From an uncultured Anaerolineales bacterium (lineage in GTDB: Bacteria; Chloroflexota; Anaerolineae; Anaerolineales; Villigracilaceae): 64,000 bases of DNA. This document shows positions 11,535-62,034 of this stretch, piece after piece (position 1 is the stretch's first letter; each line of letters begins with the position of its first letter). The stretch is taken from positions 62,001 through 126,000 of the forward strand of contig CALGPL010000010.1 of NCBI GenBank assembly GCA_937960595.1, read 5' to 3'. The translations under genes were made by a program, and so were the position numbers. The notes under the pieces are model-generated. The model had not been told where the DNA came from. It saw only the letters and a program-made list of their open reading frames with translations, and did no database searches.

Positions 11535-13532
11535 ATGACAGAAACTATTGGCCAACGTCTGCGAAGACGCCGCGAAGAACGCCTTCTGAGCATCGCCTCT
11601 GTGGTAGAAGCGACCCGCATCCGGTCTCACTACATCGAAGCAATCGAGGCAGATCATTACGAGGCCTTTCCTTCTCCTGTCCAGGCGCGCGGCTTCCTGC
11701 GCAGTTATGCTGAATTTCTTGGCTTTTCACTCGAAGAACTATCTCGCCAGGAAAGCGAACAAACGCCACCCGCCTCTGTGCAGGCCGGTGAATCTGCGCC
11801 CCAAAGCGAAACGCCTTCCGCGGCAAGTGAGACGCCCATCGGTGATGACCGCCTCCCCAAAGCGCCAGAACCCCAGGAGGCAGGCGGAACGCTGCCGTTA
11901 GCAGAGACACGCCCGGCCGCAAACGAGATACCGGTCGCGCCCGCCCCCGAAGACTCGGGCCGCCCTCGGCCGGAGTACGAGACCGGCCGGACCATTCCTG
12001 CTCCTCTGTCGCCACTTCAGCCTGCCGCCGAACAGCCGCCCGCAGCCGCCCCCAGTCCAAAAGAAAAATCCATCCGCCCGAAAAGCCCAGCGCGCCGGAC
12101 GCCAAAGTCCGCGCCGGCCAAGCCGACCCGCGAAACTCCTCCCGCGGCGAAAACGGCAGCCAAAGCCCGCCCGGCGCCGACCCCCATCCCGCCCGCCCAA
12201 AAACCGACCGCAGCCAAAAAGCCCGCCGCGGCCGCTCCCGCAAAGTCGGCAGCCAAAGCCCGCCCGGCGTCGGCCTCCGCCCCGCCCGCCCAAAAACCGA
12301 CCGCAGCCCGGCCGGTCAGTTCGACGGGCAGCAAGAGCAGCCGCAAGAAAACCACCGCCCGGAACCGGCGCAAGGCGGCCGAATCTCCCGCCGAACCGGA
12401 GTCCCCGCCGGGTTTAGCCTCCGTCGAGGCTCCGCCGGAGACCGTCCTGCCGGCCGCGGCCGAGACGGCAATCCCTTCCCCCCTCAGCCCTCTTGACGAA
12501 CCGCTCCCTGCCGAGCCAAGTGACGCCCTTGCTCTTGGCGAGGAGAAACCCCAGCCAGAAGAAGCGGCCGGGCACCCCCCGTCCTCGCGGGAGATTTTGC
12601 TGTCCATCGGCGAACGCCTGCGACAGCGGCGCGAATTGTTAGGCTTACATCTGGCCGAGATCGAACAACACACCGGCCTCCGCCAGTCTTATCTCGAAAA
12701 AATAGAATCCGCCGACTTCGACGGTCTGCCCTCGCCCGTTCAGGCGCGCGGCATGCTCAGTCAGTACGCCAGTTTCCTCGACCTGGACGCCGACGCCATC
12801 CTCCTGCGCTTTGCCGAGGGCCTTCAACAGCGGCGCCTGGAACGGCATCCCCCTTCTAAAGAAAAGAGCGCTGCTGCAGAGAAAAAGCCTCTCTCGCCCC
12901 GTCTGAGACGATTTCTCTCGGCCGATCTGCTGATTGGCATCCCCCTCATCGTCATAGTGCTGGTCGTCGTCTTCTGGGGCCTATCGCGGACAATGGCGCT
13001 CCGCACGGCCCCCACCCCCGCCGTGACGCTGCCTCCGATTTCGGATCTTCTCCTCGAAACGCCAACCCTTCCGCTCTCCGAGACCGCCGCCGAAACCCCT
13101 GCTTCTGCCGTTGCTCTACCGACCTCCGCCGTGATTGCCCCGGCCCCCGTCGGACCGCTGCCCACCCAGGCAGAGGGCGTGGTTCAGATCGTCATCGTTT
13201 CCCTGGAACGGACATGGATGCGCGTGACCGTGGACGGCAGGATTGCCTTCGAAGGCCGGACGACCGCCAGCACGCCCTATACCTTTGCTGCCGACAACCA
13301 GATCGAGGTCCAAACGGGCAACGGTGCTGCGCTGCGCATCTACCATCAAGGCCAGGACTTGGGCATGCTGGGGAGTTTCGGTCAGGCGGTCGACCGCATC
13401 TACACCTCGAGCGCAGTCCTCGACCCGACGCCGACGGTCACCCCCTCTCCCACCGTCACGCCGACGCCGACGCGCACCCCTATCCCCTCGCCAACGCCGC
13501 GGCCCTCCCCCACCCCGCGTCCGACGCCGTAA
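11535..13532 (+). CDS. RodZ-like membrane protein with two HTH domains
   Basis: The 665-residue protein has two RodZ-type helix-turn-helix domains: residues about 5-70 (IGQRLRRRREERLLSIASVV) and about 356-425 (IGERLRQRRELLGLHLAEIE). Each ends in a near-identical FPSPVQARGFL/LPSPVQARGML segment. A 280-residue Ala/Pro/Lys-rich disordered stretch separates them. One transmembrane helix follows (about 465-487), then a DUF4115-like beta domain (about 548-615) outside, and a Thr/Pro-rich tail. RodZ links the MreB cytoskeleton to cell-wall synthesis. The doubled HTH points to an internal duplication. The gene lies between rplI and rimO. Confidence 0.85.
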   Translation: MTETIGQRLRRRREERLLSIASVVEATRIRSHYIEAIEADHYEAFPSPVQARGFLRSYAEFLGFSLEELSRQESEQTPPASVQAGESAPQSETPSAASETPIGDDRLPKAPEPQEAGGTLPLAETRPAANEIPVAPAPEDSGRPRPEYETGRTIPAPLSPLQPAAEQPPAAAPSPKEKSIRPKSPARRTPKSAPAKPTRETPPAAKTAAKARPAPTPIPPAQKPTAAKKPAAAAPAKSAAKARPASASAPPAQKPTAARPVSSTGSKSSRKKTTARNRRKAAESPAEPESPPGLASVEAPPETVLPAAAETAIPSPLSPLDEPLPAEPSDALALGEEKPQPEEAAGHPPSSREILLSIGERLRQRRELLGLHLAEIEQHTGLRQSYLEKIESADFDGLPSPVQARGMLSQYASFLDLDADAILLRFAEGLQQRRLERHPPSKEKSAAAEKKPLSPRLRRFLSADLLIGIPLIVIVLVVVFWGLSRTMALRTAPTPAVTLPPISDLLLETPTLPLSETAAETPASAVALPTSAVIAPAPVGPLPTQAEGVVQIVIVSLERTWMRVTVDGRIAFEGRTTASTPYTFAADNQIEVQTGNGAALRIYHQGQDLGMLGSFGQAVDRIYTSSAVLDPTPTVTPSPTVTPTPTRTPIPSPTPRPSPTPRPTP

Positions 13533-13569
13533 TCGGACCGGCGGGCAAATCCCCGGCGCCGCATTCTCC

Positions 13570-14928
13570 ATGAATCCGAAAACATTTCACCTGACCTCTC
13601 TCGGTTGTGCCAAAAACACCGTCGACTCCGAATCCATGGCCCAGTTGTTGATGCAAGACGGCTATCGGCCGGTCAAAGATCCCTGGCGGGCGGGAGTGCT
13701 GATCGTCAACACCTGCGGCTTCATCGGTCCGGCGCGCCAGGAGGCCTACACCGTCCTGCGCGCCCTGGCCGAGGCCAAGCGCCCCGGTCAACTGCTGATT
13801 GCCGCCGGCTGTCTGACCCAGCGCTACGGAGCCGAGGTGGCCCGTCAGGTCCCCGGGGTTGACGGCGTGCTGGGCACCCGCCGCTGGATGGACATCGTCG
13901 AGGTGGTGCAGCGTCTGCGGCAGAGGCCCCATCCTCGCCCGCTCTATCACCTGCCCGACGAAGCCGAGACGATGGGCGCCGATCCGGTCGGGCCGGATGA
14001 GCGTCCGCGGGTGTTGCGCGCCAGCAGAATGGGGGCCAGCGCCTACTTAAAAATCGCAGACGGCTGCCGCCGCCCCTGCGCTTTCTGTGCCATCCCGCTC
14101 ATCAAAGGGCCGGCCGTCAGCCGGCCGCTCAACGTTCTATTAGATGAAGCCGCGCAATTACGCCAGAGCGGCGTGCGGGAACTGATTCTGATCGCGCAGG
14201 ATACCACTGACTATGGCTCCGATTGGGGGCTGCAAGACGGCCTGGCTGTCTTGTTAGAACGACTGGTCGAGCGCGTCCCAGAGATGGACTGGATTCGCCT
14301 CCTCTATGCCTACCCCGGCTACGTCACCGACCGGCTGATCGAGTTGATGGCCTCCCGGCCGCAGATTCTGCCCTATCTCGATATCCCCCTGCAACACGCT
14401 CACCCCGACACTCTCCTGCGCATGCGCCGCCCCGCCAACGTCGAGTGGGTCCGCGCCACGATTGCCAAAATGCGGGCGGCCATGCCGGGGCTGGCGATCC
14501 GCACGACGTTCATCGTCGGTTATCCCGGCGAGACGGAAGCAGAGTTCCAGACGCTGCTCGATTTCGTCGCCGAAATGCGCTTCGACCGGGTGGGGGCTTT
14601 CCCGTTTTCGTTCGAACCAGGGACGGCGTCCGAGCCGCTTGGCGACCCGATTCCGGCAGAGGTCAAGGAGGAGCGTTATCAAAGGCTGATGGAACTTCAG
14701 CAGAGCATCTCGCTGCAAAACAACCAGGCCTTCGTCGGCCAGACGCTGCAAGTCCTGATCGAGGGCGGCGATCAGAAAAAAAGGATTTCCATCGGGCGCA
14801 GTTATCGCGACGCCCCCGAGGTGGACGGCGTGGTTCTGGTGGAAGGACTACTCCCCCCCGGCAGCCTGGTGCCGGTCCGAATCACCGGGGCAATGACCTA
14901 CGATTTGACCGGCGTTCCGGTCGAATAA
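13570..14928 (+). CDS. rimO: Ribosomal protein uS12 methylthiotransferase RimO
   Basis: The 452-residue radical-SAM enzyme has the N-terminal cluster cysteines C13 (SLGCAKN), C49 (NTCGF) and C81 (AGCLTQRYG), the SAM-cluster cysteines C166-C170-C173 (CRRPCAFC), and a C-terminal TRAM domain. It adds a methylthio group to an aspartate of ribosomal protein S12. MNPKTFHLTSLGCAKNTVDS is characteristic of RimO rather than MiaB. The open frame continues upstream into the preceding gene, but the family start and the 37-base gap after that gene fix this ATG. Confidence 0.95.
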   Translation: MNPKTFHLTSLGCAKNTVDSESMAQLLMQDGYRPVKDPWRAGVLIVNTCGFIGPARQEAYTVLRALAEAKRPGQLLIAAGCLTQRYGAEVARQVPGVDGVLGTRRWMDIVEVVQRLRQRPHPRPLYHLPDEAETMGADPVGPDERPRVLRASRMGASAYLKIADGCRRPCAFCAIPLIKGPAVSRPLNVLLDEAAQLRQSGVRELILIAQDTTDYGSDWGLQDGLAVLLERLVERVPEMDWIRLLYAYPGYVTDRLIELMASRPQILPYLDIPLQHAHPDTLLRMRRPANVEWVRATIAKMRAAMPGLAIRTTFIVGYPGETEAEFQTLLDFVAEMRFDRVGAFPFSFEPGTASEPLGDPIPAEVKEERYQRLMELQQSISLQNNQAFVGQTLQVLIEGGDQKKRISIGRSYRDAPEVDGVVLVEGLLPPGSLVPVRITGAMTYDLTGVPVE

Positions 14929-14962
14929 AGGCCGGGGGCGGGCCGGCCATTCTCATCCCGCC

Positions 14963-14995
14963 AAAAAACTTGCGGCGCGAACGGGCGCGCCGCAA
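14963..14995 (-). terminator. Terminator of the TPR-protein operon (minus strand)
   Basis: TTGCGGCGCG (14970-14979) pairs with CGCGCCGCAA (14986-14995). On the minus strand the stem is followed by GTTTTTTGG (complement of 14962-14969). Confidence 0.88.
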
Positions 14996-15034
14996 CAGCA
15001 ATTATGGATTGATGCAAACGAATACGGGCCGGCC

Positions 15035-16057
15035 TCAGGGCGTCGGTATGGGCGTCTCGATAGGGGTCGGTGTGGCGGTTGGGACGGGCGTTCCGTAGCA
15101 GAGATAATAGACCTGCGTCGCCACAGGGTAATATTGCTCATTCTCGGCGTTATAGACCGTGAAGGCTTCCTCGTAGAGGGAGGAGGCCGTGCAGTAGTCG
15201 CCCGCTTCCTGCTTTTGGGCCGCCAACTGGATCGTTGCGTAGCGCCAGCGTTCGTTAGCCGTCAGACAGGAGGTGTCCATCATGTTGGGGGAAGAGAGGG
15301 CCACCTGCCCGAAATAGTAACGGGCGTTCTCCCAGTCGAGTTGCCAGAAACTGGCGGCGGTCAGATACAGCCGGGCGTTGGCTCGCAGGGCAATCGCGGT
15401 CGAATCCAGCGGGCCGAAGCGCTCGGCCAGCGTAATGTCGTAGATGCCGCCTTCCAGGTTGATGTCCTGGCAGCGATAGGCCAGGATTTTGCCAACTCCC
15501 CGGTTGCGCAGCGCGATGTAATACATCCCATCCACGTCAATCGTGCGATAGGTGGGGGCGACGCGGCGCAAGGAGTCGAGGTGAGCCACTGCCGCGTTCC
15601 AATCGCTGCTGTTGAGGGCCTCGACAGCCGAAGCGTAGATGGCCTCGGCCTCGCGCAGGTCGGGGGTCGGTGTGATGGTGGGCGTCAGCGTATAGGTCGG
15701 CGTCGGCGTGATGTTGATGCGCAGGAGGAGTTCGCGATAGGCATCCTGGACGCCCGGGTAATCCGGATTGTTGCGGATGACAAATTCCAGATGCATACGG
15801 GCGACCTCGTAGCGGCCGGCTTCCATGGCCTGGAGGCCCAGTTGGTACTGTTCCTGTACCTGCTGAGCGACGAGCGTCGCCTGGGCGCTGCGGCGAACGC
15901 CAATCCCCGACCCGTAGCCGGCCAGCCCTCCCAGCGCCAGGATCAGGAGCAAGCCAAGGACGGCCAGCAGCCGGGCGCGGCCTTTGGCCGGTTTCTCGGC
16001 CTTGTTCGGTTGCGTATCTTTGACGAGCGTGGGTTGCGTATCGTTCATATCAGACAT
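15035..16057 (-). CDS. Membrane-anchored TPR-like protein with Thr/Pro-rich linkers
   Basis: The 340-residue protein has a charged N-terminus, one transmembrane helix (about residues 29-50), a TPR-like helical hairpin (YQLGLQAMEAGRYEVARMHL), a TPTPTYTLTPTITPTP linker, further helical repeats (AIYASAVEALNSSDWNAAVA) and a TPTP tail. It is probably anchored in the membrane with its repeats outside, as a scaffold for other proteins. No enzyme domain is seen. It lies 20 bases downstream of murJ, but TATAAT (minus 16070-16065) ends seven bases before the ATG, so it may have its own leaderless transcript. Confidence 0.72.
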   Translation of the reverse strand: MSDMNDTQPTLVKDTQPNKAEKPAKGRARLLAVLGLLLILALGGLAGYGSGIGVRRSAQATLVAQQVQEQYQLGLQAMEAGRYEVARMHLEFVIRNNPDYPGVQDAYRELLLRINITPTPTYTLTPTITPTPDLREAEAIYASAVEALNSSDWNAAVAHLDSLRRVAPTYRTIDVDGMYYIALRNRGVGKILAYRCQDINLEGGIYDITLAERFGPLDSTAIALRANARLYLTAASFWQLDWENARYYFGQVALSSPNMMDTSCLTANERWRYATIQLAAQKQEAGDYCTASSLYEEAFTVYNAENEQYYPVATQVYYLCYGTPVPTATPTPIETPIPTP

Positions 16058-17776: not shown

Positions 17777-18613
17777 TCAACCCTTAAGCGCACCGGCCAT
17801 CAGACCGCGCAAGAAGTAACGCCCAAGGAAAATGTAAACCAACAAGGTGGGCAAAGCCGTCAACAACGAACCGGCCATTTGAACGTTCCAGGCAATGATC
17901 TGACTGCCCGCCATGTTGTTGAGCGCAACGGTAATGGGCCAAAACTCGGGCTTGGTCAGGACGACCGCGAAGAGAAAATCATTCCAGGCAGAGGTGAATT
18001 GCCAGATCAAAACCACCACAAAACCAGGGATCGAGACGGGGAGAATGATATGCCGATAGGTCTTGAGCAGGTTGGCCCCGTCGATGCGAGCGGCTTCGAT
18101 GATCTCCTTGGGAATGGTCGCATAATAATTGCGGAAGGTCAACGTCGTGATCGGTATCCCGTAGATAATGTGCGCCAGGATCAGACCAGGCAGGCCGCCA
18201 TAGAGGTGGATCGTCCGCATGAATTCGACCAGGGGAATCAGAATGCTCTGGTAGGGAATGAACATCCCAAAGAGAAGCAACGGGAAGATGATATCCGCGC
18301 CGCGGAACTTCCAGCGCGAGAGCACGAAGCCGTTGATCGAACCGATGAAGGACGAGATGATGGCAGCCGGGAAAACCATGTTGATGCTGTTCCAAAGCGC
18401 CGGCGCCAGATTCCGATAGGCCTCCACGTAATTGTCGAGACGTAAAGATGTGGGCAGAACCCACATTGTCCGTAGATTAACTTCCTCAAAGCCCTTGAAG
18501 CCGGTCACGATGACCACGTACATGGGTACGAGGTAGAAAGCCGTCATGAACAGCAAAGGAATATAAAGCCAATAACGGCGCTGAAAGCGGAAACGGCGAG
18601 GGATAGCGCTCAT
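17777..18613 (-). CDS. Sugar ABC transporter permease, MalG type
   Basis: The 278-residue protein has six predicted membrane helices and the EAA loop that contacts the ATPase (EIIEAARIDGANLLKTYRHI ending in LP). It belongs to the CUT1 carbohydrate importer permeases. It overlaps the start region of its partner by four bases (18610-18613), so the two are coupled. It is the last gene of the operon before the terminator. No ATPase gene is present in this cluster. Confidence 0.93.
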   Translation of the reverse strand: MSAIPRRFRFQRRYWLYIPLLFMTAFYLVPMYVVIVTGFKGFEEVNLRTMWVLPTSLRLDNYVEAYRNLAPALWNSINMVFPAAIISSFIGSINGFVLSRWKFRGADIIFPLLLFGMFIPYQSILIPLVEFMRTIHLYGGLPGLILAHIIYGIPITTLTFRNYYATIPKEIIEAARIDGANLLKTYRHIILPVSIPGFVVVLIWQFTSAWNDFLFAVVLTKPEFWPITVALNNMAGSQIIAWNVQMAGSLLTALPTLLVYIFLGRYFLRGLMAGALKG

Positions 18614-19524
18614 AGGTCTACCTCGTTCTTGACATTGAAGTAAATGTAAGGAATGATGAGCAGAGAAACGGCCAGCAAGAGCAAAATAGCAATGGCTGCC
18701 CCGCGCCCAAAGAAATAACCATCAAAAGTGGCCTGCCACATATAAATAGCCGGCACATCCAGCGGCAGTTGTTTGCCGGCAATTGCGATGATCAGATCGA
18801 ACACCTTCAAGGAGATGTGACCGAGAATGATCAACGCACTGAGCGTAACCGGGCTGAGCATGGGAAGGACGATGTAACGATAGATCTCCAGTTCGTTCGC
18901 CCCGTCAACCCGCGCCGCCTCGCGCAGTTCTTCGGGGACGCTGCGCAATCCTCCCAGATAGAGCGCCATCGTAAAACCAGACATTTGCCAGATGGCCGCC
19001 AACGCCACTGCCGCAATCCCCCACTTGGGGGTCGTATGCCAAGCATTGATCAGAAAATCCAGTCCCGCCATATCGAACAACTGGTTGAAACCACTGATCC
19101 GGCTGCCCGTGGCCGGATTCATCAGCCAGCGCCAGACAACGCCCGTGACGATGAACGAAATCGCCATCGGGAACAAGAAAAGGCTGCGGAAAAAATTCTC
19201 GCCCGGCAGGTTTTGATCGAGCAGAATGGCTAAAGTCAACCCCAGCAAGATCGAACCGGCGACAAACACAACCGTGAAAATCACCGTATTACGAATATCG
19301 ACAAAAAAGCGCGGGTCAGAAAATAGTTCGATATAGTTCCTCAGACCCACCCAGGTGTAATCGGGCAACAGCCCCTTCCATGCACTCAACGAGACTCTCA
19401 GCGACCAACCAATAAAGCCATAAACAAAGATGCCAACGGCCAAAATGGACGGCAGGACCAACCCTACCGCTGTCATGGTATCCTGATTGCGGCTACGCAT
19501 TAAGAAATTTTTCAATCTGTTCAT
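18610..19524 (-). CDS. Sugar ABC transporter permease, MalF type
   Basis: The 304-residue protein has six membrane helices and the EAA-loop motif ELREAARVDGANELEIYRYI. An N-terminal positively charged segment precedes the first helix. It pairs with the MalG-type permease encoded immediately downstream and with the binding lipoprotein encoded upstream. The 98-base gap to the binding-protein gene holds a perfect hairpin that could lower expression of the permeases relative to the binding protein. Confidence 0.93.
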   Translation of the reverse strand: MNRLKNFLMRSRNQDTMTAVGLVLPSILAVGIFVYGFIGWSLRVSLSAWKGLLPDYTWVGLRNYIELFSDPRFFVDIRNTVIFTVVFVAGSILLGLTLAILLDQNLPGENFFRSLFLFPMAISFIVTGVVWRWLMNPATGSRISGFNQLFDMAGLDFLINAWHTTPKWGIAAVALAAIWQMSGFTMALYLGGLRSVPEELREAARVDGANELEIYRYIVLPMLSPVTLSALIILGHISLKVFDLIIAIAGKQLPLDVPAIYMWQATFDGYFFGRGAAIAILLLLAVSLLIIPYIYFNVKNEVDL

Positions 19525-19622: not shown

Positions 19623-20954
19623 TTACCGGCAAGGACCGGACGTGGAGCAGGCTTGAGTCAGGGCCGCCTGGAAATTGGCAACATTACGATCGGCAAGGAA
19701 AATGCCGAGGGCATTGTTGATTTCGGTCTTCCAGGAGTCGTTCGCCACCACGCCATGGGTCAGCGAGCCGACGACTACGTTGGTGGCCCAATCGTCCATG
19801 GCCGATTGCAGATATTCGCCGAAGAGGGCGCGGTCGCAGTCGGTGCGGGCACAGATGGAACCCTTGACCGGGTTGAAAGCCTCCTGGCCCTCACGCGAAC
19901 CGGCGACCGTCAGCCAGGCAATGGCCGCGTCGCGGTGCGGCGCGTTGACCGGCAGGACGAAGGAGTCGGACAGGAACTGGAACGTGCCGACCGTCCCGGG
20001 AACCGGCGCCCAGCCATAGTCGACCGTGGGCCGCATGCCAAGTTCGCGGAAATACCCTTCGGCCCAGTCGCCCATCACGTTGAAGGCGGCGTCGCCGTTG
20101 ACGACCAGTTGAGCCGCATCTTGCCAGGTCAGCGAAGAGGCATCGCTGTTGGTGTACGTCAGCACCCTGTCAAAATTCTGCAGCGCCACCGTGACCTCCG
20201 GGCTGTCCCAGCCCAGTTCGCCCGTCCACAGTTGGTTGTAGGCGTTCGGGCCCAGCGTGGCCAGCAAAATGGTCTCGAACAGATGCATGGCGGTCCACTG
20301 CTCTCCCATCGCCAGCGGAATCACGCCCGCTTCCTTGAGGATGTCCATGGCCGCGAACCACTCTTCCAGGGTGGTCGGCACGGCAATGTTATTCTCACTC
20401 AAGATCGCCGGGTTGTACCACAGGACATTGGCGCGGTGGATGTTGACCGGAACCGAGTAGATGTTGCCGTCCTGCGAAATGAGCGGGATGAGCGTCTCGG
20501 GCATGACATCCAACCAGCCCTGTTCCTCATACAGGAAATTCAGGGGCTCGATCTGACCGGCCGCCACATAGGTGCCGATCAGTTCCTGGCCGGCATGACC
20601 CTGCCACGAGTCGGGCGGATCGCCCGCCTGCAGGCGGGTGGCCAGAACCGCGCGCGCGTTTGTCCCCGCCCCACCGGCAACAGCCGCGTTGATGAATTCG
20701 ATCTCCGGATACCGGGCGCCGAAAACGCCGATCATGGCTTCTAGGCCGGCCGCTTCACCGCCGCCCGTCCACCAGGAAAACACTTCTACCTGAGACATGC
20801 TGCCGCCCGTTGTCTGAGCGCCAGACGACGTGGTCGTTTCGCCCGCCTGCGTCTCGGCAACGGCCGTACCCGCTTCTCCTCCGCCGCAAGCGGTCAGAAT
20901 CACAGACAGCACCAAAAGCATGCTCAGGACAGTCCAATGGATTTTCTTGAACAT
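19623..20954 (-). CDS. Sugar-binding lipoprotein of an ABC importer
   Basis: The 443-residue protein starts with a lipoprotein signal (VLSVILTACGGGE; lipobox LTAC) and a Ser/Thr-rich linker, then the extracellular solute-binding family 1 fold (VEVFSWWTGGGEAAGLEAMI). It would capture a sugar or oligosaccharide outside the membrane and deliver it to the two permeases encoded downstream. A good ribosome binding site (GGAGAAAGAG) precedes the ATG. The ligand is unknown. No glycosidase gene is next to this cluster. Confidence 0.93.
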   Translation of the reverse strand: MFKKIHWTVLSMLLVLSVILTACGGGEAGTAVAETQAGETTTSSGAQTTGGSMSQVEVFSWWTGGGEAAGLEAMIGVFGARYPEIEFINAAVAGGAGTNARAVLATRLQAGDPPDSWQGHAGQELIGTYVAAGQIEPLNFLYEEQGWLDVMPETLIPLISQDGNIYSVPVNIHRANVLWYNPAILSENNIAVPTTLEEWFAAMDILKEAGVIPLAMGEQWTAMHLFETILLATLGPNAYNQLWTGELGWDSPEVTVALQNFDRVLTYTNSDASSLTWQDAAQLVVNGDAAFNVMGDWAEGYFRELGMRPTVDYGWAPVPGTVGTFQFLSDSFVLPVNAPHRDAAIAWLTVAGSREGQEAFNPVKGSICARTDCDRALFGEYLQSAMDDWATNVVVGSLTHGVVANDSWKTEINNALGIFLADRNVANFQAALTQACSTSGPCR

Positions 20955-21061
20955 CTCTCTTTCTCCTTTCAGAAATTAACGTGGGAATTGGAGCAAATGC
21001 AAACTGGAGCAATTTAGGGATCGAAAGCACCTCCTCTTCAACTTACATCGGCTTGCAAACA

Positions 21062-21115
21062 AGAAGATATCTCTTCTCAGTATATAAATTATAATGACCA
21101 GGTATCGCCAGACAA
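21062..21115. promoter_or_regulatory. Divergent promoter region with palindrome
   Basis: On the minus strand TTGTCT (21115-21110) and TATAAT (21093-21088) are 16 bases apart and face the binding-protein gene. On the plus strand TATAAT (21090-21095) faces the regulator gene. AGAAGA (21062-21067) and TCTTCT (21072-21077) flank TATC close to the predicted minus-strand start, which is a likely operator. Confidence 0.55.
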
Positions 21116-21133
21116 TCGTTTCCCGGCCAAAAA

Positions 21134-22333
21134 ATGGACATAGAGCGGCCAAACATGATGGATCAACATATTTTTCTAGACCTCTTCAAAGATCTGCTTC
21201 TTCATCTTTATGACCGCGCCTCGGTCGAAACCCACCCCCTGGCTGCACGTTTCCCTCTTCCACCTCGTTCCACCTCTCACCGCGCCGAGGCAGTCCAAAA
21301 TCTCGTTTTTTCCGAGATCGAACAGTTGCGGCCCGGCTCGGGCGAACCGGACGTCCGATCGCCAGAGTGGCGTCCCTACCTGATTCTCTATCGCCGTTAT
21401 GTGGAAGGGCGAGAGCCGGCCGAGATCGCCGCCTCGCTGTTCATCAGCGAACGTCAGTTTCGCCGCGACCATAGCCGCGCCGTTCAGGCGCTCAGCATGC
21501 GCGTCTGGGAACGCTACTTCGAACCGCCAGAGCGAACCGAGAACGGCGAGCCGCCCGAATTGGATCTGAATATTGAGCGGCTGGACCTGCACGAAGTGCT
21601 GAAAGGCGTCCTGGACCTGATCGCCCCCCGTCTGACCGACGAGGCCATAGAAGTCCACCTCGACCTGTCATCCGTTCCTCCCCTCATCGTAACCGACCGC
21701 GTCCTGCTGCGGCAGATTCTGCTCAATCTGCTCAATTCTTTTCTCCACCTTCGCCGCCAGCCTCACCTCTATCTCAGTACCCACGCCTCTCCCGCCCCGC
21801 TCCTGCGCCTGGCCTTTGACACTCGGGCAGATCGCGAAGCAAGGGCTGCCGAAATTGGAACGCTCATCCGCGAGATGGGCAGCCGCCTCCACATCCGCAT
21901 AGACGAAAAAATCCCCGCCGCCGGGCAGGAGGGCCGGGCAGAAATTTCTCTGCTCTTCCCCTTGGCGCGATCCAAAACCATTCTCATCATCGATGACCAG
22001 CCGGCAGCCCTGCGAATGTATCAACGCTATCTGAGCCGCACTGCCCTGGACGTGATCGGCATCGGCGACCCCGCTCAGGCCTTGAAAGCCATCCGCCACC
22101 ACCGGCCTGCCCTGATCATTCTAGATGTAATGATGCCGCGCCTGGATGGCTGGGAGGTCCTCCAGGCTCTCAAAGTGGATCCCGCCCTGCATTCGATCCC
22201 GGTCATTGTCTGCTCGGCCTGGGCAGAACCCGATCTGGCCCAATCGCTGGGAGCAGCGATCTTCCTGAAAAAACCCATCTTCCAAAAAGATTTGCTCGAA
22301 GCCCTGGGGCGTTTCGGTCTGATCGAGAGTTGA
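21134..22333 (+). CDS. Response regulator with N-terminal HTH, kinase-like middle and C-terminal receiver
   Basis: The 399-residue protein (starts at 21155 or 21158 also possible) has a sigma-region-4-like HTH (EIAASLFISERQFRRDHSRA), then a region like a histidine-kinase ATPase domain that keeps the N-box-like RQILLNLLNSFLHL but lacks recognisable G-boxes. A complete receiver follows with acidic pair IIDDQ, phospho-acceptor D331 (LDVMMP) and Lys in LKKPI. The receiver lies at the C-terminus, opposite to the usual order. Its stop overlaps the region before the hybrid kinase gene, so the two form a signalling pair, facing the sugar importer. Confidence 0.75.
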   Translation: MDIERPNMMDQHIFLDLFKDLLLHLYDRASVETHPLAARFPLPPRSTSHRAEAVQNLVFSEIEQLRPGSGEPDVRSPEWRPYLILYRRYVEGREPAEIAASLFISERQFRRDHSRAVQALSMRVWERYFEPPERTENGEPPELDLNIERLDLHEVLKGVLDLIAPRLTDEAIEVHLDLSSVPPLIVTDRVLLRQILLNLLNSFLHLRRQPHLYLSTHASPAPLLRLAFDTRADREARAAEIGTLIREMGSRLHIRIDEKIPAAGQEGRAEISLLFPLARSKTILIIDDQPAALRMYQRYLSRTALDVIGIGDPAQALKAIRHHRPALIILDVMMPRLDGWEVLQALKVDPALHSIPVIVCSAWAEPDLAQSLGAAIFLKKPIFQKDLLEALGRFGLIES

Positions 22334-22335
22334 AC

Positions 22336-24486
22336 ATGCGCTGGCTGGATCTATTTTCCCCCAAACCAGAATTGAGCGAGCTCATGCATTCGACGGCTCG
22401 CAATGTGGTAGGAACGGTCGCCGGACTTTATCTCGCTTGGCACATCATTGCAACGATCGGATATCCTGCTCAGTTCAGCCCCAGTCTGTGGCTCATTTCG
22501 ATTTTTATGGCCGCCCTGGTTGCCACCACCCTGCACTTGAGCAAACGTCACTATTTGCTCTCCCAAATTCTCTGGTTATTCGGCCTGATGGGCGCCATTC
22601 TCCTGGGATATCATATCTACCATTTCCCGGGCATACTCTACCTGTTGACGATTCTGCCGATCCTCTCGATCGTCACGGTCGGCCTACCGGTCACGGGCCT
22701 GACCATCCTAAGCGGAACAGTCATCACCGTCTTTCTCGTTTACAGCGAGGGCTTGCCGAAGATCCTGCCGGGAGAAATCTTCCTGGGAAGCCTGTTCAGC
22801 GCCCTGCTTGGCTGGGGCATCTCCAGCAACCTACTGGAAGCGCTGAACGCGGCATCGTATCACTATAACGAGGCCCGCCGTCTACTGGAGGAAACCCGCA
22901 AGCACCGCGCCGAAATCAGCCGCATGCTCAAAGATCGCAACCAGGTTAATTACCAACTGGAACGGATGAATGAGATGTTGACTGCAGCGCGCGCCCAGGC
23001 CGAAGAGGCGCGCGAGAATCGCAATCGCTTCATGTTGGCCGTCAGCCATGAGTTACGCAGTCCGCTGAACTTCATCATCGGCTTTAGCGACCTGATGGTC
23101 AACGCCCCAGAAACTTACGCGCCTCCCGAACACTGGCCCCCCGGGCTGTACGACGACATCCAGGAAATCTACACTTCCAGTCGTCACCTGATGCGCCTGA
23201 TCAACGACATCCTGGACATGGGCAAGATTGAGGCCCGTCAAATGCAATTGTTTCGCGAAAAAGCCAACCTGCACCAAATTGTGGTCGATGTCACAGAAAT
23301 GTTACGCGGCGCCTTTGAACAAAAAGGGATTGCTCTCGAAATCGACCTCCCCCCCGACCTGCCGCCGGTTTTCGTGGACACCACCCGCATCCGACAAGTA
23401 TTGCTCAACCTGCTCAACAACGGCCTGCGTTTCACCGATCAAGGATGCGTCACCCTGCGGGTTGAGCGACAAGAACAACATCTTCTGGTCAGCGTCGAAG
23501 ATACCGGCACCGGAATCGCAGCCGAGGATTTGCCCAAGGTATTCAGCGAATTTCGACAGGTTGGAGACGAGAATTGGCGACGACGGGCCGGCAGCGGCCT
23601 GGGACTCTATATCAGCCGCCAATTCATCGAACTGCACGGCGGCCAAATGGACGTTCAAAGCACCCCTGGAAAAGGAACGCGCTTCTATTTCACCCTGCCG
23701 TTGAGCACTCTGCATCCCGAACTCCCCGAAGTGATTTCATCCGCGCAACCCTCTCAACCCGACAACCGGCTGATCTTCCTGGTCACGCCCCATCCAGAAG
23801 ACGCGGACGTTCTCCAGCACGAGATGCAAGATTACACGATCAAAACCTTCGCTGGCCTGGACGAAGCCGTTCTTCAGGCCGGGAAATTGTTCCCGCGCGC
23901 CATCCTCGTGGCGACAGAAAAAGGCGACCTCCGCGCAGACAAATTACCTTACGACCTGCCGGTGATCCGCTTCCATCTCGCGCGCACCAACGCCCAGGCC
24001 GGCAACATCCGCAGCCAACTGGTCAAACCGGTTTCGCGCAAAATTCTGATGGACGCCATCCACGCCCTCGGGTCCGGTCAACGCAGTTTGCTGATCGTAG
24101 ACGACGACCCCGCAATGGTGCGCTTTGTCAATCAATCGTTGCGAGCCGACAAAACCCCCGACCATTACATTCTCTTGAGCGCCTTCACCGCCAACCAGGC
24201 CCTTCAATTGATCGAGACCCATCCCATTGACGCCATGCTGCTCGACCTGGAACTGCCCGATATGAACGGTTGGGAACTGCTGGCCCGCATTCGCAAACGG
24301 CCCGGGCTGGCCGATCTGCCGGTCATCATCATCTCGGCTCAAGACTTGCCGGAGATGAACTTCGTCCCCGGCAAGAGCGCCCTGGAAGTCGTCCTGCGTC
24401 GTCCGCTGCGGCCGACCGAACTGATTGAGATGCTCGAATCGGCGCTCGAAACGCTTCCGCCGCAATACCCTAACGAGAGGATATAA
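22336..24486 (+). CDS. Hybrid sensor histidine kinase with pseudo-receiver and receiver
   Basis: The 716-residue protein has about five to six N-terminal membrane helices (residues about 15-165), a coiled coil, the dimerisation domain with H238 (SHELRSPLN), and an ATPase domain with G-boxes (EDTGTGIA, GSGLGLYISRQ). A receiver-like domain without the usual Asp (RLIFLVTPHPEDADVL...) follows, and a final receiver with D637 (LLDLELPDMNGWE). A TTG at 22330 is in frame, but the ATG at 22336 is preferred. It lies two bases after the regulator gene and probably phosphorylates it. The membrane part has no recognised ligand domain. Confidence 0.86.
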   Translation: MRWLDLFSPKPELSELMHSTARNVVGTVAGLYLAWHIIATIGYPAQFSPSLWLISIFMAALVATTLHLSKRHYLLSQILWLFGLMGAILLGYHIYHFPGILYLLTILPILSIVTVGLPVTGLTILSGTVITVFLVYSEGLPKILPGEIFLGSLFSALLGWGISSNLLEALNAASYHYNEARRLLEETRKHRAEISRMLKDRNQVNYQLERMNEMLTAARAQAEEARENRNRFMLAVSHELRSPLNFIIGFSDLMVNAPETYAPPEHWPPGLYDDIQEIYTSSRHLMRLINDILDMGKIEARQMQLFREKANLHQIVVDVTEMLRGAFEQKGIALEIDLPPDLPPVFVDTTRIRQVLLNLLNNGLRFTDQGCVTLRVERQEQHLLVSVEDTGTGIAAEDLPKVFSEFRQVGDENWRRRAGSGLGLYISRQFIELHGGQMDVQSTPGKGTRFYFTLPLSTLHPELPEVISSAQPSQPDNRLIFLVTPHPEDADVLQHEMQDYTIKTFAGLDEAVLQAGKLFPRAILVATEKGDLRADKLPYDLPVIRFHLARTNAQAGNIRSQLVKPVSRKILMDAIHALGSGQRSLLIVDDDPAMVRFVNQSLRADKTPDHYILLSAFTANQALQLIETHPIDAMLLDLELPDMNGWELLARIRKRPGLADLPVIIISAQDLPEMNFVPGKSALEVVLRRPLRPTELIEMLESALETLPPQYPNERI

Positions 24487-24569: not shown

Positions 24570-26093
24570 TCAATCCAGGGGGCCAACGACCCGCTCGACC
24601 TCCTCGAGAATCTCACCCGAACGGACCAGCGCCTTCATAGCATTGTGATCGTTGAAGAGCGGGCGGTCGATGTCGAGGTGGGCTACATGGCGGCGGATGA
24701 CCTGGCGTGCTTTCTGCGTCCCCTTGCCCGGCGTAAAGTCCCGGAAGTCGAGCGCCTGGGCCGCGGCCATGAATTCGATTCCGAGAATCCCATAGGCATT
24801 GTCCATGATCTGCAAATTCTTCAGGGCGGTATTCATCCCCATCGAGACGAAATCCTCCTGATCGGCAGCGGCCGGGATAGACTGGATGCTGGCCGGCGCC
24901 GAAAGGATGCGCTGCTCGACGATCAGCATGTCGGCCGTGTACTGGCTGAGCATCAGCCCCGAATAGAAGCCGGGTTCGTGGGCCAGGAAATCGGGCAACC
25001 CCTGAGAGAGGGCCGGGTTGGTCAGGCGGTTCAGCCGCCGTTCGGAGAGCACGCTGACCATCGTAATCGCCGCCCCTGCCATGTCCATCGGCAAGGCCAC
25101 CGGGCTGCCCTGGAAGTTCGCGCCCGTCAACGTCAGGCGATCCTCGGTGACGAAGATCGGATTGTCGGCCACGGCGTTGAGTTCGATCTCGACCTGCGAG
25201 CGGGCATAGTCGATCGCGTCGTGGGCCGCGCCGATGACCTGCGGCGTCGAACGCATCGAATAGGCATCCTGAACCTTGGTCTTCATCTTCCCCGTCGTCA
25301 AGTCGGAGCCTTCGATGACCTTGCGGATGGCGCGCGCCGCCCGCATGGCGCCCTTGAAGCCGCGCAACTCGTGCAGTTTGGCATGATAGGGCTTCAGATT
25401 TCCCAACAGCGCCTCGATCGACATGGCCGCCGCAATTTCGGCCTGCTTCAGCCAGCGCTCCATATCGTAGAGCGTCAAGGCGCTGATGGCCGTCAACAGA
25501 TTCGAGCCGTTGATCGCCGCCAACCCATCGCGGGCGTGCAGACCCGGCACCGGGATGCCGGCGCGCCGCATCGCCTCCGCGCCGGGCAGCCGTTCGCCCT
25601 GATAGAATGCCTCGCCCTCCCCCATCAGCAGGAGAGCAGCCTGGGCCATCGGCGCCAGATCGCCGCAGGCCCCCACCGAGCCTTTCTGGCAAACGACCGG
25701 CGTCACGCCCCGGTTGAGCATCTCGACATACGTCAGCGTGATTTCGGGTCGGCAGCCCGAATAGCCGCGGGCGTGCACGTTGACCCGACTGGCCAGGGCA
25801 GCGCGCACATGCTCGATCGGAATCGGATCCCCAATGCCGGCCGCATGATTGTAGACCAGATAGCGCTGGAATTGCTTGACCTGCTCATCATCGAGCACCT
25901 TCTCAGAAAACTCGCCGATGCCGGTGTTCGTGCCGTACATGATTTCGTGAGCAGCCAGTTTTTCCTCCAGCATGGCCCGGCAAGCCCGAATGCGTTCCAG
26001 GGCAGCCGGATCGAGTTCGACTTTCTCGCCGAAACGAGCAATGGACACCAGTTTTTCGATCGTGAGAGAAGAACCATCCAGAATAATCGTCAT
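24570..26093 (-). CDS. hutH: Histidine ammonia-lyase family protein with Ala-Cys-Gly MIO motif
   Basis: The 507-residue protein covers the full aromatic amino-acid lyase fold. The segment that cyclises to the MIO electrophile reads GSVGACGDLAPM, with C143 (codon TGC, 25665-25667) where the family has Ser. Other active-site segments are YGTNTGIGEF, YNHAAGIGDP, YSGCRPE and QEDFVSMGMN. The His after Asn in YNHAAG corresponds to the His of HutH that favours histidine as substrate, so deamination of L-histidine to urocanate is the best guess. Tyr or Phe lyase or aminomutase activity is possible. No other hut genes are nearby. Confidence 0.82.
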   Translation of the reverse strand: MTIILDGSSLTIEKLVSIARFGEKVELDPAALERIRACRAMLEEKLAAHEIMYGTNTGIGEFSEKVLDDEQVKQFQRYLVYNHAAGIGDPIPIEHVRAALASRVNVHARGYSGCRPEITLTYVEMLNRGVTPVVCQKGSVGACGDLAPMAQAALLLMGEGEAFYQGERLPGAEAMRRAGIPVPGLHARDGLAAINGSNLLTAISALTLYDMERWLKQAEIAAAMSIEALLGNLKPYHAKLHELRGFKGAMRAARAIRKVIEGSDLTTGKMKTKVQDAYSMRSTPQVIGAAHDAIDYARSQVEIELNAVADNPIFVTEDRLTLTGANFQGSPVALPMDMAGAAITMVSVLSERRLNRLTNPALSQGLPDFLAHEPGFYSGLMLSQYTADMLIVEQRILSAPASIQSIPAAADQEDFVSMGMNTALKNLQIMDNAYGILGIEFMAAAQALDFRDFTPGKGTQKARQVIRRHVAHLDIDRPLFNDHNAMKALVRSGEILEEVERVVGPLD

Positions 26094-26321: not shown

Positions 26322-29300
26322 TCAACGGCAGGCACGACGATGAGAGCCGCCTCGATGGCCGGATGGACGAGAGTTGCACACCCCTCCGTCCACGAAGATG
26401 CTGCCCAGGGTGTTGTCGGCAAACACCGGCGCGCCATCCTGAGTCAGCACACCGTTGACGACCTTCAAACCATAACCGCCGTTTTGAACATAGACGCCAT
26501 CTGTGACGAAGACACGGATGCAGCAATTGCCCGTGACCGAGACGCCATGAGAACTGTTGCCCCACGCCGTCAAGCCGGTCAAGGCCACGTCGCCCGAGGT
26601 GGTGATGGCAAGACCGCTCTGCTGGTTGTTCTTGTACTGACCGCCGGTCACCGTCACCGCGCCCCGGTTGGAGACGACCGCCCCAGCCTGGCCGTTGCCG
26701 AACGCGATCACCGAGACCAGTTCGACCGTGCCGGGCGCCGTTACCGACAGGCCGGCCTCGCGGACATTGTTGCTGAACGCGCCTCCGACGACGAGGACGT
26801 CCCGGCCGGCGCTGAGACGAGCGCCATAGAGGGCATTGTCCTCCGCCGAAACATCGTTCAGCGTGATCGTCCCGCCGGCAATCACCTGCAAGCCGTACCC
26901 GCCGACACAACCACCGCGGTACGTGCACTTGTAGAACAAATGGCCGGAGAAAGCGCTCTCCTCGATGGTCACATCGCCGGCGGCTTGAATGTAGGCTCCG
27001 TACAGGCTGTTGTCATAGGCCTGCACGTTGACCAGCGACACATTGCCGCCGCTGACAGCCTTCAGCCCGTACCCGACTTCGACCTTGCTCGACCGATCAA
27101 AGCGGTTGTCGCTGAATTCGCTGTCCGCAATGGTAATGTCCCCATCGGCTTTGAGGCTGGCGCCGTAAAGATAGTTGCCATTGGCCACAACGTCCCGCAG
27201 ATCAATCTGCCCCTTGCTCTCGACCAGCAAGCCATATCCATAGACGGTGTAGCCGCTGCAAGAAGAATAGCGATAGGCTCCATTGTCCGAGAAATTGGCC
27301 GCCTGGATGGTCACATTCCCCACGGCCCGGATCTTGGCGCCGAAGAGGTTGTTGTCCACCGCCTGAACATCCCACAACCAGACGTTTCCGCGGCTGATCA
27401 CCTGCAGGCCATAACCATCTCTGACCTTGCCTGCGCTATACGCATTATGGCTGAAGCGGCTACTGGTGATATACACATCGCCGTCGGTCTTGAGGTAGGT
27501 GCCATAGAGGACATTGTCTTCGGTAGTGACATCGTACAGGTAGATCGTGCCCTTGGTTACGATCTTGAGACCATAGCCGTAGGGCGTGCAACCGCCGCAT
27601 TCGTAGTTGGTCGAGCAGGTGTACAGATCATGACCGGAGAAACTCGCCGCCATGACCGAGACGTCGCCGACTGCTTGCACATCGGCCCCAAACAGGCGGT
27701 TGTGATTGGCCTGTACGCCGGCCAGGGAAACAAATCCACCGCTGACGATCTTGAGCCCATACCCAACTTGCAGGCTCTGCGACTGCCGGAAGGCATTGTT
27801 GCTGAAAATGCTGTTGTTGACCGAGACGTTCGCCCCGGCTTGCAGAGAAGCGCCATAGAGATAGTTGCGCTCCGCCCGGACGCCGTCCAGTTGGATGCTT
27901 CCTCCAGCCGTCACTTTCAGGCCATATCCATAAACGGTGTATCCGCTGCATGCCGAACCGGTGTACGAACGATTGTCAGAGAAATCGCTGTAGTAGATTG
28001 AAACGTTCGTGCCGGCCTGGATGGAGGCGCCATACAGGTTGTTCGCCGAGGCAGCCACATTCGTCAACCCGACCGCGCCGCCGCTGACGATCTGCAGCCC
28101 GTAGCCGACGCGGGTTCCGCCCTGGCCAAAGGCGTTCTGGCTGAAACTGCCCGTGTAGATGAAAACATCGCCTGCGGCCTTCAGATAAGCGCCATACAAC
28201 GCGTTGCGGTCGGCGGTCACCTGATACAAATAGATGCTGCCGTCCGTCATCACTTTCAGGCCGTAACCGTAGGGCGTACATCCGCCGCCGCATTCGTAAT
28301 TGGACGAGCACGAATACAAGCGGTGGCCAGAAAAACCAGCGGTCGTGATAGAAACATCCCCTGCCGCCTGAATCGTGGCGCCATACAGGCTGTTGTCGTT
28401 GGCCTGCACCCCCGAAAGGGTGACATAGCCGCCGCTCACGATATTCAACCCATATCCAACCTGATTGCGGCTGGAGCGGTCGAAGCGGTTGTTGCTGAAG
28501 CGGCTATCGGCGACAAAGACCCAGTCATTGGCTTTGATCGAAGCGCCGTAGAGGTAATTCCGCTCGGCAGTGACATTGACCAAGGTCACCGTCGCGGCCG
28601 AGTCTACCCGCAGGCCATAGCCATAGACCACGTAATTGTTGTTGCACCACGAGCAGGTATAAGCGCGATTCTCGGAGAAATCTCCCTGGGTGACAACCAC
28701 GCTGCCCGCTGCCCCGATTCGAGCGCCATACAGACGGTTGCGATTGGCTTGCACATTGGTCAAGGCCACATCCCCATCGCTTGTCACGTAGAGACCGTAA
28801 CCCACGACAGTGTGATTGCGCAAGATGGCTCCATTGTCGTTGAAAGTGCTGTCCACAACGGCGACATCGCCATCTGCATCGAGCCGGGCGCCCGCCCTCC
28901 GATTTTGGTCGGCCGCGACGTTCTCCAAAGTCACATCACCGCCGGCCACGACGACCAGGCCGGTGTCGCTGTGAGTAACCTGGACGTTGACCACCGTCAC
29001 GTCGCTCTGCGAGACCAGCACCAGAGCAGCCTGCTGGGTCACGCCGGAGATGTTGATGTTGCGAACGATCAACGCCCCTGTCCACGGCTTCTCCTCTACG
29101 CCGATGGTGATGGGAATCGTGAAAGTAGTGCGGTCGTCTGGGTCAATCAACGACAGATTCGGATTCCAGCCACCCTGGAGCGAGAGGTCATACTGGCTCA
29201 GGTTGACAAAAGGGAACGAGTTGAAGTTGATGCTCGTCTCACCCCCGCTGTAGTCGCCAACCGCAATATAGATGACGCCGGCCTGTTGATAGAGAGGCTC

Positions 29301-29735
29301 CGTCTCGTTGGCCAGCAAAAAGCCGAGAAGGGCGGTGACGCTTCCAAACGTGGAGGTACAACCGTTCTCGCCAGGAACAGCCGGCTGCCCAGCCGGGCAC
29401 CAGAACGAATCGCCAGGATTGGCAAGGATCGTCGGAGCCGCGGCCGGTTCCTCGGTCGGAGCCGCGGGCGGAGAATCGGGCGGGGGAGCGCCCTCGTCGT
29501 CCGGCGCTGCGGCGTCGTCATCGGGTGTATTTTCGTCTGGGCTTTGGGTGGATAGATTTGGATCGTCTGGGGTTGCTTCCCCCTCAGTCGTTTGCTGAAT
29601 GTCGTCGCCGATCACGGTCGTCGGGGTTTCCGGCGGCGGGGCCTCATCGGCCCGCGCGACCGTCGGCAAGACTGCACTGAGAAGGATGGCAAAGACAACA
29701 GCAAGAAAAAAATGGAACAGCCTTCGTTGTATCAT
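26322..29735 (-). CDS. Large secreted right-handed beta-helix repeat protein
   Basis: The 1137-residue protein (start at MIQRRLFHF) has a signal peptide ending near residue 28 (TVARA-DE), a Pro/Glu/Asp-rich linker (about 30-85), and then about 12 repeats of 60-70 residues. The consensus is YGLxVxSGGxVxLxxVxAxxNxLYGAxIxAxGDVxIxxxxFSxN. Regular turns with V, I and N rows are typical of parallel beta-helices in surface adhesins and polysaccharide-binding proteins. Cys pairs (CSSNYECGGGC, CSWCNNN) recur. No sortase motif, membrane anchor or catalytic residue pattern is seen. The last 20 residues (SRPSGHRGGSHRRACR) look unlike the rest and might reflect a frameshift near the end. Confidence 0.82.
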   Translation of the reverse strand: MIQRRLFHFFLAVVFAILLSAVLPTVARADEAPPPETPTTVIGDDIQQTTEGEATPDDPNLSTQSPDENTPDDDAAAPDDEGAPPPDSPPAAPTEEPAAAPTILANPGDSFWCPAGQPAVPGENGCTSTFGSVTALLGFLLANETEPLYQQAGVIYIAVGDYSGGETSINFNSFPFVNLSQYDLSLQGGWNPNLSLIDPDDRTTFTIPITIGVEEKPWTGALIVRNINISGVTQQAALVLVSQSDVTVVNVQVTHSDTGLVVVAGGDVTLENVAADQNRRAGARLDADGDVAVVDSTFNDNGAILRNHTVVGYGLYVTSDGDVALTNVQANRNRLYGARIGAAGSVVVTQGDFSENRAYTCSWCNNNYVVYGYGLRVDSAATVTLVNVTAERNYLYGASIKANDWVFVADSRFSNNRFDRSSRNQVGYGLNIVSGGYVTLSGVQANDNSLYGATIQAAGDVSITTAGFSGHRLYSCSSNYECGGGCTPYGYGLKVMTDGSIYLYQVTADRNALYGAYLKAAGDVFIYTGSFSQNAFGQGGTRVGYGLQIVSGGAVGLTNVAASANNLYGASIQAGTNVSIYYSDFSDNRSYTGSACSGYTVYGYGLKVTAGGSIQLDGVRAERNYLYGASLQAGANVSVNNSIFSNNAFRQSQSLQVGYGLKIVSGGFVSLAGVQANHNRLFGADVQAVGDVSVMAASFSGHDLYTCSTNYECGGCTPYGYGLKIVTKGTIYLYDVTTEDNVLYGTYLKTDGDVYITSSRFSHNAYSAGKVRDGYGLQVISRGNVWLWDVQAVDNNLFGAKIRAVGNVTIQAANFSDNGAYRYSSCSGYTVYGYGLLVESKGQIDLRDVVANGNYLYGASLKADGDITIADSEFSDNRFDRSSKVEVGYGLKAVSGGNVSLVNVQAYDNSLYGAYIQAAGDVTIEESAFSGHLFYKCTYRGGCVGGYGLQVIAGGTITLNDVSAEDNALYGARLSAGRDVLVVGGAFSNNVREAGLSVTAPGTVELVSVIAFGNGQAGAVVSNRGAVTVTGGQYKNNQQSGLAITTSGDVALTGLTAWGNSSHGVSVTGNCCIRVFVTDGVYVQNGGYGLKVVNGVLTQDGAPVFADNTLGSIFVDGGVCNSRPSGHRGGSHRRACR

Positions 29736-30007
29736 GCAGGGACCTCCTCGATTTCCCACTTGCGCCCGCTAATCCCTGTGGGACGAACAGGCGCGTTCAA
29801 CTATCCCTTCTGAACTACATCAGATGAATGGATATCAAGAGAAAAAAGTCTCGTCAGATCGTTTCATTTCCCTCCTTTTTTCAATGGACATTCCACCCAA
29901 AATCCCAATGACAAATCTATTTTACTGCAATTTCGGGCTGCGGATGGTAACAAAACGATAACAAAATGAGACCAGATACGACCTTTCTTAGTGATGGCCC
30001 CGCCCAA
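29736..30007. other. Intergenic region before the beta-helix gene
   Basis: This AT-richer stretch holds the ribosome binding site of the beta-helix gene (GGAGG on the minus strand, 29741-29745). No open frame with coding character, repeat or clear promoter pair was found here. Confidence 0.5.
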
Positions 30008-61979: not shown

Positions 61980-62034
61980 CGACACCCTTCGGCCCCCCGG
62001 CGCGTTCTGGCAAACCGCTCCTTTGCAGGCAACC

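Follow-up and report, generated by a model that had tools for sequence, protein, structure and literature searches.

What governs a sugar importer whose operon stands back to back with a regulator of unusual build? The question is raised by a 64,000-nucleotide stretch (hereafter the window; positions 62,001 to 126,000 of contig CALGPL010000010.1, assembly GCA_937960595.1) from an uncultured Anaerolineales bacterium, whose source assembly is fragmented, 2.47 Mb long and 86.6% complete. Two coupled genes on its plus strand encode the regulator P1 and the membrane hybrid histidine kinase P2, and upstream of P1, on the minus strand, lies a divergent operon for a solute-binding protein (SBP) and two permeases. 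We consider it rather probable, at about 0.72, that P1 and P2 form a two-component system of a lineage-specific type that is dedicated to the importer, P2 phosphorylating P1 and phosphorylated P1 activating the importer. P2, which has six membrane helices and no large outer domain, would read the state of the importer, or the sugar, within the membrane, autophosphorylate at His240, and hand the phosphate to the C-terminal receiver of P1, at Asp331. In its phosphorylated form, P1 would bind three 11-bp repeats head to tail through a sigma-4-like helix-turn-helix (HTH) and, bound upstream of the -35 element, would activate the SBP-permease operon. A preliminary description of the window had suggested that the pair may sense the imported sugar, which is still conjecture, the link observed being one to the importer promoter. 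Its coordinates and domain assignments are right except for the gene starts and some details of the receivers, and the coupled pair does face a sugar importer, composed of one SBP_bac_1 and two BPD_transp_1 proteins:

21155-22333 (+): regulator gene P1, for which a start at 21155 or 21158 is likelier than one at 21134
22330-24486 (+): membrane hybrid histidine kinase gene P2, start TTG 22330 or ATG 22336
19623-20954 (-): sugar-type solute-binding protein (Pfam SBP_bac_1)
18610-19524 (-): importer permease 1 (Pfam BPD_transp_1)
17777-18613 (-): importer permease 2 (Pfam BPD_transp_1)
21124-21151 (+): putative operator, three direct repeats with an 11-bp period (CGGCCA-N5-TGGACA-N5-CGGCCA), from repeat tests and a genome scan
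21088-21115 (-): promoter predicted for the SBP-permease operon, with -35 TTGTCT (21115-21110), spacer 16, -10 TATAAT (21093-21088)

The ATG at 21134 falls within the operator, and those at 21155 and 21158 agree better with the orthologues of P1; the TTG at 22330 overlaps the P1 stop codon.

Putative operator and predicted promoter between P1 and the importer

The operator was evaluated in two sets of P1 members. The first comprised 82 (60 regions in the list order of a class search, 21 loci from a named collection, and the window), of which 21 came from a scan for close relatives, and the sample is not random; the second, held out, comprised 53. Two of the 82 had too little upstream DNA and were dropped from the operator counts. 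Because counting by the unit YGNCA alone missed sites of the CGGAC type, we used a motif-free test for triple repeats (p<0.01), which detected a lag of 11 bp upstream of P1 in 40 of 80 members, compared with 0-2 of 80 for lags of 8-10 and 12-15 bp, and with 1 of 82 in the control regions upstream of P2. The repeat unit reads xGnCA and occurs in front of either P1 or the SBP gene. When three units of G.CA were scored, 51 of the 80 P1 upstream regions reached at least 8 of 9, as against 1.8% of shuffles, and 35 had a perfect score, as against 0.06%; in the second set, the operator was present upstream of P1 in 18 of 52. Across 134 loci (1.48 Mb) there were 129 perfect triples where 11.3 were expected (strands and overlaps counted apart), 55 of them upstream of P1 and 33 upstream of the SBP gene, whereas 20 control stretches contained 3, with 2.3 expected. 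The site in the window is the sole match in its own 2.47-Mb assembly at no more than one mismatch, and at this threshold genomes G001, G002 and G018 have one site each and G015 and G012 three each, one being at P1. A general repeat search on six intergenic regions did not reveal the 11-bp array. The SBP-P1 intergenic region (20955-21133 in the window) also contains, in 10 of 14 cases among the window and its orthologues, the 8-mer CACCTCCT (AGGAGGTG on the SBP messenger strand), which stands away from the SBP ribosome site and is unexplained.

In the window, the operator immediately precedes the -35 of the predicted SBP promoter, the one promoter found in a scan of that strand (shuffled sequences gave a mean of 0.7). 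This spacing is strict among close orthologues, in all 18 of which the -35 TTG is exactly 9 nt from base x of the operator; 17 of them have a -10 after 16-18 bp. Where the gene order is different, the operator remains at the SBP promoter: in the eight co-directional loci read, all of the first set, it precedes SBP and not P1, and in six of these a -35 TTG with a 17-bp spacer and a -10 begins 9-10 nt past the operator. Judged from sequence, this is the geometry of an activator site, at which P1 would stimulate transcription of the importer.

P1 could instead repress the importer, or its own gene, and in favor of this the operator in the window spans the start region of P1. We regard repression as unlikely, although of the competing explanations it fares best: in 18 of 18 close orthologues and in six of the eight co-directional loci, the operator stands upstream of the SBP -35 and not over the -10 or the start. 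Under activation of the importer by P1, the overlap with the start region of P1 may serve to damp P1.

Domain structure of the regulator and the kinase

Both proteins combine conserved and degraded signalling domains:

21161-21523 (+): predicted P1 N-terminal DNA-binding domain, six helices (Pfam and AlphaFold2 model)
21572-21955 (+): P1 pseudo-HATPase, residues 147-274, without G boxes or ATP lid and with the N-box Asn lost
21977-22312 (+): P1 intact receiver, residues 282-393, phospho-Asp331 codon 22124-22126
22366-22839 (+): six predicted P2 membrane helices (residues 13-44, 53-73, 75-97, 100-116, 119-140 and the start of 146-258)
23020-23235 (+): P2 HisKA/DHp, phospho-His240 codon 23047-23049, His in 72/72
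23377-23706 (+): P2 active-type HATPase_c, residues 350-459 (Pfam and motif conservation)
23770-24069 (+): P2 first receiver (residues 481-580), a pseudo-receiver that retains Lys566-Pro567 but not the acidic site
24091-24441 (+): P2 second receiver (residues 588-704), which retains the acidic pair and Asp639 but not the Lys ahead of Pro

The HTH of P1 (residues 84-120) has a weak Pfam match, below the cut-off, to Sigma70_r4 (E 0.0069); Sigma70_r4 models are the closest to it, and the 25 families shown when 40 members were compared included no AraC model. Its recognition helix spans residues 106-129 and includes Arg110 (codon 21461-21463). The Pfam scan gave no match in the middle of P1, and its nature emerges from an AlphaFold2 model built on 82 family sequences (mean pLDDT 91.8), in which the strands and helices of residues 147-274 follow a GHKL-like order and the ATP-lid segment is absent. 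Profile alignment of this region with the HATPase of P2 itself (hhalign 99.5%, E 2.7e-23, 130 columns) agrees with the model, as do its best profile matches among solved structures, which are kinase catalytic regions such as those of ZraS and RetS. The middle region therefore has the fold and homology of a GHKL ATPase and lacks the N, G1 and G2 boxes. Among 135 aligned P1 members, GxG[LIV]G occurs in none, DxGxG in four, both together in none, and the N-box Asn in two; the same G-motif patterns, applied to P2 as a control, were present in 71 of 72 and 72 of 72. (L152, L153 and L141, which end at contig ends, were excluded from the domain alignments, and an extra alignment check covered residues 279-399 only, not the pseudo-HATPase.) Because the motifs are missing across all 135, the dead domain is old and retained. 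The receiver that follows (Pfam 283-391, E 2.7e-20) is complete, with Asp288 in 135/135, Asp331 in 133/133, Lys380 in 131/131 and Ser/Thr361 in 132/132. Pfam, the AlphaFold2 model and the motif counts thus agree with the preliminary description of P1 as an HTH, an ATPase-like middle without G boxes and a terminal intact receiver, and the predicted structure of the middle is a GHKL/HATPase fold with no functional ATP site.

That the pseudo-HATPase still binds a nucleotide or a sugar phosphate, and so provides a second sensory input, would fit the family-wide retention of the fold, in which Gln194 is invariant and Asp188 present in 91% of 82 members; the motifs that contact the nucleotide are gone, however, and we think this distinctly unlikely. 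In the importer-dedicated system that we favor, the dead HATPase would be a structural part and not a catalyst, probably serving in dimerisation or in docking on the kinase.

In P2, six membrane helices are predicted, the sixth extending as a long helix to the DHp, and the model has no large extracellular domain. Pfam detected HisKA, HATPase_c and a receiver at 588-702, and the kinase core is intact, with His240, Asn364, Asp391, Gly393, Gly395, Gly423 and Gly425 conserved in 100% of 72 members. Residues 470-585 had no Pfam receiver match, and a family profile of this region does match receivers. Here, as the preliminary description had recognized, a receiver-like domain without the phosphorylatable Asp precedes the second receiver: the window has A528 in place of the Asp, which 48 of 72 members lack, the window included, the acidic pair is broken in most, and Lys-Pro is retained in 71 of 72. 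The predicted model of this domain is without helix alpha3. The second receiver, which that description took to be a real one, is so in part, since Asp639 is present in 72 of 72, whereas the usual Lys before Pro is missing at the strict column in all 72 (nine have a Lys 1-2 residues away). Its beta5 region is poorly ordered in the model, which was predicted from 66 of the 72 P2 rows (six dropped) and has a pTM of 0.40. The complementary pattern of residues is real, the first receiver offering Lys-Pro and the second the acids, and the two might conceivably contribute to a shared active site.

Candidate recognition residue, gene linkage and family size

Residue 110 of P1, in the recognition helix, had the highest mutual information with operator base x among 116 positions scanned, and in the first set the pairings were R-G in 23/23, Y-T in 13/13, F-T in 2/2, Q-C in 7/8 and H-T in 3/5, such that base x appears mostly to follow residue 110 (R-G, Y/F-T, Q-C). 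PhoB boxes also have an 11-bp period, and it could be argued from this spacing, and from those P1 genes that have no operator, that another, PhoB-like regulator binds the repeats and that P1 acts elsewhere. We consider this quite improbable, given that the motif varies across members together with residue 110 of P1, that the own genome has a single operator, unlike a global regulon, and that perfect triples are so concentrated at P1 and SBP genes.

The importer is a regular neighbor of the pair, in line with the association with transport genes that the preliminary description had led us to look for in other genomes. Among loci of both sets with 3 kb of contig on each side, an importer gene lies within 3 kb in 79 of 83, and a P2-type kinase in 81 of 83. 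In the first set, 49 of 82 members had such flanks (SBP or permease in 46, P2-type kinase in 47), and in the second, 34 (importer gene in 33, P2-type kinase in 34); 20 random 15-kb stretches from four genomes of the class contained an SBP in five, a permease in six and P2 in none. The orientation of P2 relative to P1 varies (convergent in 55, on the same strand downstream in 14 and upstream in six). Over 49 loci, pairwise distances correlate at 0.92 for P1-P2 and 0.93 for SBP-permease, and at only 0.37 for P1-SBP (permutation maxima 0.14-0.25), indicating that the signalling pair and the importer are two units that have been re-paired and yet remain adjacent. It is hardly credible that an ordinary response regulator has stayed beside a transporter through vertical inheritance alone, as the one common synteny of the close orthologues (L060-L076) might suggest, since the module recurs in dozens of other loci with different importers and changed gene order, and importer and signalling distances disagree while linkage persists. 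At six loci (L132, L136, L143, L148, L165 and L167), the SBP genes encode 857-920 residues, with two SBP domains per chain.

Several observations weigh against importer activation by P1 through this operator. At the chosen score, the operator is missing upstream of P1 in 29 of 80 members of the first set and 34 of 52 of the second. With L219 excluded, the held-out pairings were Y/F-T in 9/9, Q-C in 2/3, R-G in 1/2 and H-T in 1/3, and the rule was right in 13 of 17, where a constant T would give 11 of 17, so that the second set bears out the operator and, of the rule, the Y/F portion but not the whole. Phylogenetic contrasts yielded 1-3 independent pairs on supported branches, which is not significant, although contradictions are very rare (for R-G, in 2 of 200 pairings). 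The fixed -35 spacing was found in only 3 of 33 wider members, and at L117, L121 and L129 the operator lies a few bases before a TTGACA-17-CATAAT promoter that reads toward P1, as though it were P1 that is activated there; the control geometry therefore differs among members. Finally, the Asp639 kept in the second receiver of P2 may denote an HPt step or a phosphate sink.

Named relatives belong to Anaerolineae/Chloroflexota; among them Thermanaerothrix daxensis, which is culturable, carries the module (L070). The own genome has one full-length P1, which was found in 8 of 41 genomes in a search of relatives (own counted), and the N-domain reaches 38 copies in G099, 20 in G289, 18 in G269 and 13 in G063, each count including one ~650-residue protein of a different build. 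A class search matched 379 of 396 genomes at 1e-8, a figure that we do not use as a prevalence since many of these matches are weak and may be HATPases of other kinases. At 1e-18, a phylum search matched 35 of 121 genomes, mostly with just that ~650-residue protein; few of these 121 have, beyond the class, frames some 400-450 residues long, and G517 has 11 N-domain matches. P1 homologues are common within their class, and this is apparently a large, undescribed bacterial family of two-gene sensor systems beside sugar importers: we found no description of it in an open-licence library, which omits most subscription papers. The P1-type HTH domain is also C-terminal in proteins that begin with a 7TM region and are about 650-730 residues long (L190:185-2134, own-genome contig C5, ~13184-15133, with Pfam HisKA_7TM; also L191-L194). 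Such a frame occurs once in each of 12 genomes, and five were read.

Adjoining P2 is a histidine ammonia-lyase type gene (24570-26093, -), also present in the stretches fetched for L060, L061, L071, L073 and L075; nothing indicates that it belongs to the module. Beyond it, 26322-29759 (-) encodes a 1145-residue repeat protein that, from its translation alone, looks secreted.

Origin and known systems

The preliminary description derived P1 from a kinase that lost its activity and gained DNA binding. In receiver trees, the P1 receiver groups with the first receivers (those after the HATPase) of tandem hybrid kinases and not with second receivers or simple regulators, with the caveat that these trees have a midpoint root, long branches and few columns; the long read-through frame of L077, which contains a P1 member, was labelled there as a hybrid kinase. 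Given this grouping and the HATPase-receiver order, P1 looks as though part of a hybrid kinase had been fused to an HTH. To this extent a kinase origin is upheld, but the AlphaFold2 model of P1 shows no DHp remnant. The pseudo-HATPases of 31 members form one clade (SH-aLRT 98), which, along with the family-wide loss of motifs, makes the loss old and shared, not a recent decay, and the HATPase tree does not single out a donor. Duplication of the P2 HATPase within the locus was considered as a source of the P1 middle and left as unproven: P2-type kinases had the best scores after P1 itself in three genomes, and other hybrid kinases equalled them in a wider set. The nearest receiver to that of P1 in the own genome (47% identity) is in a GAF hybrid kinase directly followed by a gene (L196:3076-4752, contig C57) for a pyridoxal-phosphate enzyme (PALP) with a fused C-terminal receiver.

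A tentative scenario, for which the odds are somewhat below even, is that these are phylum-specific plug-in controllers of importers that arose when a hybrid kinase was split and its two parts decayed reciprocally: the kinase would have kept its ATPase and lost the phospho-site of its first receiver, while the regulator kept that receiver, lost the ATPase and gained an HTH with a one-residue DNA code, the pair having since been re-paired with many importers. The architecture of P1 and P2 is real and old, and an importer-linked two-component family with its own operator is the better-supported story.

To our knowledge, few regulators of sugar uptake are known in the Anaerolineae, which are mostly uncultured degraders. 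If our account is true, these are switches that serve importers specifically and whose binding site can be predicted, and many importers could be assigned to a controller from sequence. The family would also be a natural test case of the way in which the defunct ATPase of a kinase is built permanently into a DNA-binding regulator, and of how pseudo-receivers are used in a genetically paired system.

In Firmicutes, kinase-regulator pairs of the YesM/YesN type likewise adjoin sugar ATP-binding cassette (ABC) importers. YesN-type regulators have an N-terminal receiver and an AraC-type HTH, whereas P1 has the reversed order, a sigma-4-like HTH in place of the AraC type, and a pseudo-HATPase. As with PhoB/OmpR, the putative P1 operator consists of 11-bp direct repeats near the -35; unlike those regulators, P1 has no winged helix, and its HTH (84-120) and receiver (283-391) are at the opposite ends. 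In Bce-type modules, as described in PMC10314905, a kinase senses a transporter; P2 is similarly a kinase without a large outer domain linked to an ABC transporter, here by gene neighborhood, although Bce transporters, in that account, serve peptide resistance and the P1/P2 loci encode importers with an SBP.

A further resemblance is to kinases of the ShkA (Caulobacter), GacS/BarA and RcsC type, which, like P2, have a pseudo-receiver between the CA domain and the receiver, and Foldseek ranked ShkA (6qrj) first for P2 (E 3.2e-20), as it did for P1 when run by domains. According to PMC7010744, the first receiver of ShkA is a pseudo-receiver that binds cyclic di-GMP and lacks helix alpha3, an absence that the predicted model of the first P2 receiver shares. 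PMC12632262 describes pseudo-receivers as common, with a control that is for the most part not understood. P2 has, as in ShkA, a receiver without a phospho-site before a phosphorylatable one, and it departs from ShkA in that its second receiver, having no Lys, is incomplete. P2 further differs from the ShkA type in its six membrane helices and in its co-evolving HTH regulator, which has a receiver of its own.

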